Below, in pieces: positions 1,228 to 14,071 of a stretch of DNA of 64,000 nucleotides (position 1 is the first letter of the stretch; every line of letters starts with the position of its first letter). Below the pieces are notes generated by a model, which was not told where the DNA came from, did no database searches, and saw only the letters and a program-made list of their open reading frames with translations. Both the position numbers and the translations under genes were made by a program. Source of the stretch: an uncultured Candidatus Actinomarina sp. (GTDB lineage: Bacteria > Actinomycetota > Acidimicrobiia > Actinomarinales > Actinomarinaceae); assembly GCA_902619825.1 (NCBI GenBank), contig CACNFT010000002.1, forward strand, positions 1 through 64,000, in the 5' to 3' direction.

Positions 1228-2843
1228 TCAAATTTTTTAAAAAGGTGTCCAATATTTTCTAAAGGGGCACCTTTTTTTATGTCGTTTACTGACCAATTAT
1301 TATTTGTATTTTTTTCAATTGCATTTTTTACAACCTCAGATGTTGTCGGCATAAAAGGAGTAAATAATGATGCACATGCATCTATTGCTGTAAGTGATGT
1401 GTGTAGTATTGCTGTTGCTCTGGCGTTGTCCTCTTTTATTATCTTCCATGGTTCTGTTTCATTAAGATAAGCATTTATTTTATTTACATATCCCATAACT
1501 GACTGAAGTGATGATTTGAGTTCGACCTTTTCGATTAATTCACTTGTCTTTTCAAAACAAACACTGGCTTCATCAATTATTTTTTTATCAATTTCATTTA
1601 ACTCAAAATCAAAGTCTAATTTTTCATAATTATTTATATATTGTGAAAAAACTCTTTGAACTAAATTTCCCCATGCCGCCACAAGTTCTTCGTTATTTCG
1701 TCTAATCATTTCATCTTCAGAGATTTCAGAATCATTTTGCTCTGGCAGGATACTGGCTAGAGCGTATCTTAATGAATCTGGATTCCATTCATCAAGATAA
1801 TCGTTCAAAGTTTTTCCAACACCCCTACTTGCAGATGCCTTTTCACCTTTAATCAATATGTACTGGTTTGCCGGAACATTTGTTGGTAGGTTCAAATCAC
1901 CATATGCAAGTAACATGGCAGGCCATATTATTGCATGAAAAGGAACATTATCTTTTCCAACAAAATAATAAGACTCTGCATCCTCATTCATCCAAAAATC
2001 TTTCCATGCATCAGGTGTGCCATTGTTTATTGCCCACTCTTTAGCTGCAGATAAATAACCAATTACAGCTTCAAACCATACGTATATTTTTTTTCCATCA
2101 CCTAATTCATTTTCTGGAATGTCGATTCCCCAGTCTAAATCTCTCGTTATAGCTCTATCTTGTAGACCTTCTTCAACAAATGATTTAGAAAAGTTTATAA
2201 CGTGAGGTCTCCAACCTTCTTTACTATTTAACCAATCAGAAAGTCTCTCATTTAGAGCACTTAACTTTAAAAAATAATGTTCAGTCTCTTTAAATTCTGC
2301 TTTGTTTCCAGATATTTTACTTATAGGATTTATTAACTCTTCTGGATCAAGAGTTTTACCACAGCTATCACATTGGTCACCTCTTGCTTCACTATAAGCA
2401 ACAGGACAAGGACAAGTTCCCTCTACATATCTATCAGGTAAAAACATTTTTTCTTGTGGATCAAAAGCCTGGATACTTTTATTTTTTTCAATAAAGCCAT
2501 TCTGTTTTATTTTTAAGAACATTTCCTGAGTAACTTCTTTATGATTATCAGTCATTGTTGTTGTATAGTTATCCCAAGAAATACCAAGTTTTTCCCAATA
2601 CCCCAAAAATTCATTGTGATATTTATTGACAATATCTATTGGTTGAACACCTTCTGCATCAGCTCTTACAGTTATTGGGGTACCGTGAACGTCGCTTCCT
2701 GACACCATTAAAACATTGTTACCAACAGCTCTGTGGTACCTTGCAAAAATATCAGCAGGCAGATATGCTCCACCAATATGGCCTAGATGTCTTGACCCGC
2801 TTGCATATGGCCAAGCCACACAAACTAATACATTTTTTGACAT
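1224..2843 (-). CDS. metG: Methionyl-tRNA synthetase
   Basis: CVAWPYASGSRHLGHIGG (HIGH), CPCP..CDSC zinc site, VWFEAVIGYLSAAKEW. Confidence 0.95.
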   Translation of the reverse strand: MSKNVLVCVAWPYASGSRHLGHIGGAYLPADIFARYHRAVGNNVLMVSGSDVHGTPITVRADAEGVQPIDIVNKYHNEFLGYWEKLGISWDNYTTTMTDNHKEVTQEMFLKIKQNGFIEKNKSIQAFDPQEKMFLPDRYVEGTCPCPVAYSEARGDQCDSCGKTLDPEELINPISKISGNKAEFKETEHYFLKLSALNERLSDWLNSKEGWRPHVINFSKSFVEEGLQDRAITRDLDWGIDIPENELGDGKKIYVWFEAVIGYLSAAKEWAINNGTPDAWKDFWMNEDAESYYFVGKDNVPFHAIIWPAMLLAYGDLNLPTNVPANQYILIKGEKASASRGVGKTLNDYLDEWNPDSLRYALASILPEQNDSEISEDEMIRRNNEELVAAWGNLVQRVFSQYINNYEKLDFDFELNEIDKKIIDEASVCFEKTSELIEKVELKSSLQSVMGYVNKINAYLNETEPWKIIKEDNARATAILHTSLTAIDACASLFTPFMPTTSEVVKNAIEKNTNNNWSVNDIKKGAPLENIGHLFKKFD

Positions 2844-12436: not shown

Positions 12437-13285
12437 TTAAGTTCTCGAATATAAAAAAGCTGAAGTAAGAATCACTCCAATCCCAACAAATTGTATGGCA
12501 TAAGTAATTTCATTTAGAAACTGATAACCAAAGAAAATAGAAAAAATCGGAATCATATAAACTATAAATGAACTTGATATCCTTCCAACATTGTCTAAAA
12601 GTTTGTAATAGGTTAAGAATGCAATCCCAGTACCACCAATACCTAAAATTAACATTGGAATTAATGAAATCTGTAGAGTTGGAAGTTTAAATGATGCAGT
12701 AAATCCATATAAAATCAATGAAAGCAATGAAGCATATCTCATGACAATTTTAAGAACGATATAGGATTCATATTTTTTAATCAGTGGCTCAACTATATTT
12801 ACAGCAATTCCATAAGATATAGAGGCAATTAATGCAAATATAGACCCGATATTAAAAGATAGATCATTAATTCCACCACTTAATGTAATCAGGCCAACTC
12901 CAATGAAGCCTGAAAAAATATAAATGATTTGAAGATTGGTAATTCTCAGTCTGTAAAAAACTACTGCGATGAAAGCAACAAAAATTGGCGTTGAACCGTT
13001 GATTAATCCAGCTAATGATGAGGTTATTGTTTGCTCTGCTATTCCAAACATATAAAAAGGTAAAGCCATCCAAAAAAAGGAAACTATAACAAATTTAATA
13101 TGATCAGCCTTATCAATCTTTTCTTTAGTTCTTACAAAAATATTTACAAATAATGCACCAATTAGAATTCTATAAAGAGCTATATCGGAAGGATTTAGTT
13201 CATCAAGAGAATATTTGATCATTAAAAATGAAGATCCCCAAATTGATGAAGTTACAAGAGCTAGAAATAGGTTTTTAATTTGCAC
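12437..13285 (-). CDS. EamA/DMT-family transporter
   Basis: 10-TM DMT pattern: SSIWGSSFLMIKYSL, GSTPIFVAFIAVV; probable GTG start. Confidence 0.85.
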   Translation of the reverse strand: MQIKNLFLALVTSSIWGSSFLMIKYSLDELNPSDIALYRILIGALFVNIFVRTKEKIDKADHIKFVIVSFFWMALPFYMFGIAEQTITSSLAGLINGSTPIFVAFIAVVFYRLRITNLQIIYIFSGFIGVGLITLSGGINDLSFNIGSIFALIASISYGIAVNIVEPLIKKYESYIVLKIVMRYASLLSLILYGFTASFKLPTLQISLIPMLILGIGGTGIAFLTYYKLLDNVGRISSSFIVYMIPIFSIFFGYQFLNEITYAIQFVGIGVILTSAFLYSRT

Positions 13286-13315
13286 AGATTAAGAAGCCTA
13301 ACATATTTTTATTAA

Positions 13316-13381
13316 TGGAGCCACCCCAACAGGGTAGTTGATTAGTGTCAGTGGTTCAGACTTACACAAAAGGCGGCTCCA
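13316..13381 (-). ncRNA. Candidate structured leader RNA (three-way junction) upstream of the EamA transporter
   Basis: Minus strand UGGAGCCGCC...GGUGGCUCCA closes a 10-bp P1 (with G-U); inside are GUGU-A-AGU(CUGAACC)ACU-G-ACAC and CAAC(UACCCU)GUUG. Confidence 0.5.
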
Positions 13382-13405
13382 CTTTAAGTTTAGATGAAAG
13401 AATAA

Positions 13406-14071
13406 TTAGATTATCTGGTCAGTAATTATTTCAATATTTTTTGAATAATTCTTTAAAAGATTAATAGGTAAGTTATTGTCAACGTTTACAAGTTTAAGTA
13501 TATTTTTCTTACTTTCACCAGTTGCTAGGACATATATCTTTTCAATTTTTCCAAGTAAGTGAAAAGTTGATGTTACTCTCCATTTTGTTTTTATATTTAC
13601 CTCGTTTGCAACATAAAGTGAATCATTATTATCAAGGGCTTTTGTCCCAGGAAACAGTGACGCTACATGTCCGTCTTCGCCCATACCAAGAATAGCTACA
13701 TCGAAGACCTGGATTGTGCTTTTTAGTTTATCTTCATACTTTTTTGCATCACTTTCAGGAGAGGAACTTGTGAATTCAAATTTTAAAATATTTGCGTCAG
13801 TTCTTTCAAAATATTCATTTATCATTCTCTGGTTTGAAAGGTCATTATCTTCTTCAATCCATCTATCATCAATTGTCCAAATAAAAGTTTTTGAGAGGTC
13901 ATCAAAGTTTTCTGCGATCATTGAATAAGTTAATTTTGGAGTGTTTCCACCAGAAAGTCCGATTGAAAAATCTCTATTTGAATTAACTAATAAATTTTTA
14001 ATCTCGCCTACAAGATAACTCGACGCACTCTCATGGTTGTTTTCATGATGAATATTTATATCATGTGTCAT
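13406..14071 (-). CDS. pgl: 6-phosphogluconolactonase
   Basis: GLSGGNTPK, WTIDDRWIEEDNDLSNQRMI, DVAILGMGEDGHVASLFPG. Confidence 0.9.
   Translation of the reverse strand: MTHDINIHHENNHESASSYLVGEIKNLLVNSNRDFSIGLSGGNTPKLTYSMIAENFDDLSKTFIWTIDDRWIEEDNDLSNQRMINEYFERTDANILKFEFTSSSPESDAKKYEDKLKSTIQVFDVAILGMGEDGHVASLFPGTKALDNNDSLYVANEVNIKTKWRVTSTFHLLGKIEKIYVLATGESKKNILKLVNVDNNLPINLLKNYSKNIEIITDQII

Follow-up and report, generated by a model that had tools for sequence, protein, structure and literature searches.

The window analysed here, a stretch of 64,000 nucleotides from an uncultured Candidatus Actinomarina sp., encodes on its minus strand a 6-phosphogluconolactonase (pgl, 13406..14071) and, downstream of it, a transporter of the EamA/DMT superfamily with a GTG start (12437..13285). 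The sole Pfam family match of the transporter is EamA (PF00892, E 3e-33). Among NCBIfam models, the closest to this protein (carboxylate/amino acid/amine transporter, YedA and YddG) score far below their cut-off, and no chain in the PDB matches it; we take it to be a probable exporter. The 120-nt gap between the two genes harbors a 66-nt element on the minus strand (13381-13316), whose 3' end is separated from the EamA GTG at 13285 by 30 nt. In the sense of the transporter it reads UGGAGCCGCC UUUU GUGU A AGU CUGAACC ACU G ACAC UAAU CAAC UACCCU GUUG G GGUGGCUCCA. The initial annotation had described it as a three-way junction ending about 30 nt ahead of a probable GTG start, and our analysis bears out its sequence, coordinates, pairings and distance, with RNAfold returning the same junction on the minus strand.

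The outer helix P1 is formed by UGGAGCCGCC (13372..13381) and GGUGGCUCCA (13316..13325), as seen from the sequence and from folding, and is further marked by compensatory changes across copies. The 5' strand of P1 leads into the junction J1/2 (UUUU, 13368..13371), of which UUU is invariant in the comparison of copies. This is followed by the P2 hairpin GUGU-A-AGU(CUGAACC)ACU-G-ACAC (13345..13367) with a 7-nt loop of the form [C/U]UGAACC, and by the P3 hairpin CAAC(UACCCU)GUUG (13327..13340) with the hexaloop UACCCU, which emerges from both folding and the comparison of copies. For the minus strand of the gap we obtained a folding energy of -30.6 kcal/mol and a z-score of -3.7 relative to dinucleotide shuffles (0/200 equally stable); the plus strand gave a z-score of -1.1, with 29/200 shuffles equally stable. 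When six copies from clades A (that of the window), B and C were folded singly, all proved compatible with the same three-way junction, which was the minimum-energy fold in five of them and the centroid in one. The earlier choice of the minus strand as the functional one holds because the inner eight P1 pairs, taken over five distinct P1 types, are formed in 40/40 instances on this strand versus 33/40 on the plus strand, where the inner helix is broken in each of the five types.

Conservation and distribution of the leader RNA

Between representatives of different clades the 34 core positions are 97.6% identical, as against 43.6% for the 30 nt upstream of P1 and 33.3% for the 20 nt downstream, in a comparison across which the amino-acid identity of Pgl drops to 41-50%. 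The core exists in just two states, which differ at two positions. Judged by these identities, its conservation is far in excess of what common descent leaves in the flanks. The loops and J1/2 are invariant except for one C/U alternation and are thus more conserved than the variable P1, a combination of invariant unpaired nucleotides with a changing outer helix that is looked for in riboswitches. Because the loops and junction are fixed while the outer helix varies, the element has the look of an aptamer or a protein-binding site.

The covariation of P1 was scored on 24 distinct, deduplicated rows, in which it is paired in 98.4% of the cells. Two-sided changes occur in 10 cells, as opposed to 2.2 after shuffling, a count that 0/500 shuffles reached. 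The covariation score of 0.154 was likewise reached by 0/500 shuffles, which gave 0.104, and slid structures did not score above 0.063. These counts are inflated by kinship among the copies, and their statistical weight lies in P1 alone, where two pairs (three in another count) have changed on both sides. The two-sided changes are A-U/G-C/U-A and U-A/C-G/U-G, and the one-sided changes G-U/A-U and C-G/U-G. P2 is invariant, stems included, in 33 copies, and covariation is therefore silent on it. Every copy has the C-G-closed UACCCU hexaloop of P3. The two middle pairs of this hairpin are both A-U in clade A and both U.U in clades B and C, where further pairs are added to give AUCC-UU-C(UACCCU)G-UU-GGAU with a tandem U.U. 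A conserved leader structure with covariation, as expected of a riboswitch, is hence present in P1 and on the minus strand only, and the proposal survived the test of conservation and covariation across homologous leaders by which the initial annotation was prepared to see it fail. We are highly confident, on these comparative grounds, that the element is a conserved structured leader RNA.

A covariance model recovered the leader RNA in 32/42 Candidatus Actinomarina genomes, with one copy in each; 353 genomes from elsewhere in the class gave no hit, and a draw of 397 genomes from the phylum gave only the one in the window's own genome. A DNA search yielded close copies in four congeners, and named Actinomarina assemblies contain nearly identical loci. 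Phage and plasmid sequences showed no match, and none of the viral contigs contained the P2 consensus. Starting from the transporter, the element is present in the leaders of 28/30 EamA orthologues, and it sits between pgl and EamA at each of the retrieved loci whose length permits a judgement. The constancy of pgl as the upstream neighbor notwithstanding, we do not think that pgl is under its control. Ten of the Actinomarina genomes lack the leader RNA: seven have adjacent pgl and EamA genes without any trace of it and constitute a single clade in the pgl tree, and the remaining three have either no EamA match or an EamA gene cut by the contig end. The element-less clade (L139-L143, L040 and L042) has a short pgl-EamA gap and offers a natural comparison group.

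When a loose two-motif pattern was run over 84,980 species, the matches confirmed by the covariance model were all Actinomarina-type loci. Two of these carry other labels. L110, on a contig labelled Woeseiaceae, is nested within clade B of Actinomarina in the trees of both genes, and L097, labelled Flavobacteriales, has a 105-base stretch containing most of the leader RNA. On account of the gene trees in the former and of the element itself in the latter, both look like Actinomarina contigs mis-binned with unrelated bacteria.

Probable promoter, upstream ORF and exchange of the transporter

In a distance scan over 33 leaders, the offset that matched TATAAT best of all those scanned was 7 nt ahead of the GAG in P1 (mean 4.36/6), and most copies have a -10-like box at this distance. 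In the window it is the hexamer TAAACT (13387..13392, minus strand); the same place is occupied by TATAAT/TATACT in the sister clades (TATAAT or TATACT in clade B). A strict promoter scan of the window returned no promoter and no consensus -35; L073 has CTGACC-18-TATAAT, and the -35 is not conserved among the copies. Given the usual spacing, we infer that transcription starts at about 13380-13381, which makes the opening base of P1 the first one transcribed. The fixed distance of the -10-like box from P1 therefore makes it probable that EamA has its own promoter and that its mRNA begins with the leader RNA.

The maximum-likelihood tree of Pgl recovers the leader types A, B and C each as a single group. 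In the EamA tree, ten clade-A and seven clade-B genes make up one type (type 1), which is about 80% or more identical to that of the window, and a second type is about 50% identical to type 1. Mapping these types on the Pgl tree gives six changes, of which at least five fall on well-supported branches. Where EamA was swapped within clade B, the native leader has stayed in place, and the replacement sets in some 5-15 nt beyond P1, at AAGGAATCTATGTTAAGC. As the leader follows the pgl tree while the EamA type beneath it changes, the leader RNA, going by the two trees, is a module that works with either transporter. Viewed over the pgl-EamA locus as a whole (L051-L080), the two EamA types have been exchanged at least five times, with the exchange beginning just after the leader RNA.

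The type-1 leaders also contain a short upstream ORF that overlaps the EamA start and is putatively translated (13275..13304 in the window, minus strand; nine codons, MLGFLICAN*). In 17/17 type-1 leaders its ATG is found exactly 19 nt ahead of the EamA start codon, and the ORF is nine codons long in 16 of them; except in L053, where it is truncated, its stop overlaps the EamA start region. This overlap suggests that the upstream ORF and EamA may be translationally coupled. The encoded peptides include MLGFLICAN, MLSFKACEF and MLGSLSCAN, and in several genomes a Shine-Dalgarno-like AAGGA is placed to suit the ATG of the upstream ORF and not the EamA start.

Relation to known RNA families

At the gathering score, Rfam 15 detects only three tRNAs in the whole window and leaves the leader RNA unmatched; with E-values up to 10, the window and the clade-B and clade-C copies give chance-level matches and no bacterial regulatory RNA. 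The earlier failure to place the element in a known riboswitch class is thus upheld by both searches. Our literature search likewise found no description of it, including in a paper that covers both Actinomarina and riboswitches. It is best classed among the orphan riboswitch candidates, as a structured leader RNA that forms a new and as yet unnamed family.

Three known systems invite comparison. EamA genes are targets of the orphan ykkC subtype 2d RNA, which is found upstream of EamA/TauE genes (PMC7266159). Like it, the leader RNA is structured, has invariant nucleotides and lies directly 5' of an EamA gene with an unassigned substrate; however, it is far smaller (66 nt), has another fold and consensus, and is restricted to one genus and one context. 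The ykkC families of Rfam give no match to it at E-values up to 10. With the purine-type riboswitches it shares a junction closed by P1, from which two hairpins of about 7 and 4-7 pairs project side by side, with loops of 6-7 nt. It differs in having no Rfam match and in its loops, UGAACC and UACCCU, between which the G-C kissing pairs of that class are not possible; nor are its conserved junction residues those of the purine class. The resemblance to T-boxes, including the short actinobacterial form, consists in a GGGUGG stretch and a hairpin loop able to hold a codon. Here again there is no Rfam match, and the T-box consensus with an accessible UGGN is not found: there is no free UGGN bulge, the UGG being paired in P1 in the predicted folds, and the base following it is not conserved, being C in clade A and U in clades B and C.

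Putative function and rival explanations

Comparative sequence evidence makes the leader RNA very probably a new gene-control RNA. We favor, with moderate confidence, the reading that it is a genus-specific, autonomous sensor acting in cis from the 5' leader, most likely a small orphan riboswitch that controls the probable exporter EamA. That it is a metabolite riboswitch is, in our estimate, evenly balanced. We propose only tentatively that it represents a new riboswitch class, with a small three-way-junction aptamer (UUU, [C/U]UGAACC and UACCCU) that is confined to Actinomarina and was kept as a module as the exporter was swapped. The cis-regulatory RNA or riboswitch suggested by the initial annotation stands as to a conserved and strand-specific element located in cis in an EamA/DMT leader; the hairpin proposed as its switch, ACCC(UGUUG)GGGU, is specific to clade A, the other clades reading ACCCUGUUGGAUGGU instead.

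As a sensor, the leader RNA would begin at or beside the first nucleotide of the EamA mRNA and present the invariant loops [C/U]UGAACC and UACCCU along with the UUU junction as its recognition surface, where a small intracellular ligand could bind and adjust EamA expression. Its fixed site at one transporter and its retention through the replacement of that transporter suggest that it might sense something relevant to the cargo of both EamA types. Because it accompanies a single gene family in a single genus, its gene context cannot identify the ligand. Against a sensor stands the clade of seven genomes that does without it. The step after sensing would most likely be translation, with the RBS and the type-1 upstream ORF just 3' of P1. 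In most copies of clades B and C, a U-rich tract after P1 would permit transcription attenuation instead: the 8 nt after P1 contain 4-8 U in these copies versus 1-3 in the window's clade and L077 (3 in the window itself). The earlier observation that no U-run follows P1 accordingly applies to the window's clade and fails for most sister-clade copies. A terminator scan detected none in the window, L073 or L070, and the window has no G+C-rich hairpin followed by a U-run.

Of the rival explanations, we consider it unlikely that an RNA-binding regulator occupies the two invariant hairpin loops and represses or activates EamA translation. Such a protein site would account for invariant sequence in the apical loops as well as the junction, for a P2 that never varies and for an ACC-containing motif in both loops (UGAACCACU and CUACCCUG); however, the RNA occurs in a single copy per genome with no reuse at other genes, and no candidate protein was identified. 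It seems rather improbable that P1 and the U-rich tract end transcription in clades B and C to release a stand-alone RNA of about 66 nt or a leader terminated by default. Not only are there few U in the window's clade and L077 and an empty terminator scan, but P1 also encloses about 45 nt rather than a short loop and the leader RNA is never found away from EamA; in favor of attenuation are the 4-8 U of most clade-B and clade-C copies and the likely start of transcription at P1.

Stable 5' hairpins are known to stabilize mRNAs, and a P1 beginning at the transcription start might merely shield the EamA mRNA from 5'-end-dependent decay. We give this little credence, as it would need pairing and not invariant loops, whereas P1 is the less conserved part of the element. 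Hardly credible is a tRNA-related leader, whether one that imitates the anticodon arm of tRNA-Phe (CUGAACC vs CUGAAAA) or a miniature T-box (GGGUGGCUCC, which resembles the T-box GGGUGGNACC): the 7-nt loop does contain pyrimidine-U-GAA as in the tRNA-Phe of the genus, and the 3' strand of P1 does contain UGG, but a C is found where tRNAs have a purine, the P2 stem is interrupted, neither T-box nor tRNA models of Rfam match, and the UGG is predicted to be paired in P1, with a clade-dependent base after it.

Few free-living marine bacteria are known to be as small as Candidatus Actinomarina, whose streamlined genomes measure about 1 Mb. That an untranslated element has been preserved to the base throughout this genus, while the rest of the gap has turned over, points to a strongly selected control step. 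Members of the EamA transporter family are mostly uncharacterised, and the ligand of the putative riboswitch, if found, would name the substrate of this one. The natural swap of EamA types under one leader furnishes a ready-made control, in that both types should handle the ligand, and at 66 nt the RNA is small enough for direct probing and structure work.

Folding of the complete leaders revealed no shared alternative pairing of the RBS. We considered and rejected its sequestration (AAGGA) by the UCCUU of the AUCCUU in the clade-B and clade-C P3: the three-way junction dominates the folding, UCCUU does not occur in clade A, and only one species (L065) shows a strong alternative. In the latter (1501-1600, plus strand), the full leader is predicted to fold best with its P2/P3 region paired to GGAAGGAAGU, around the RBS; this pairing, not seen in other species, might serve as an expression platform.
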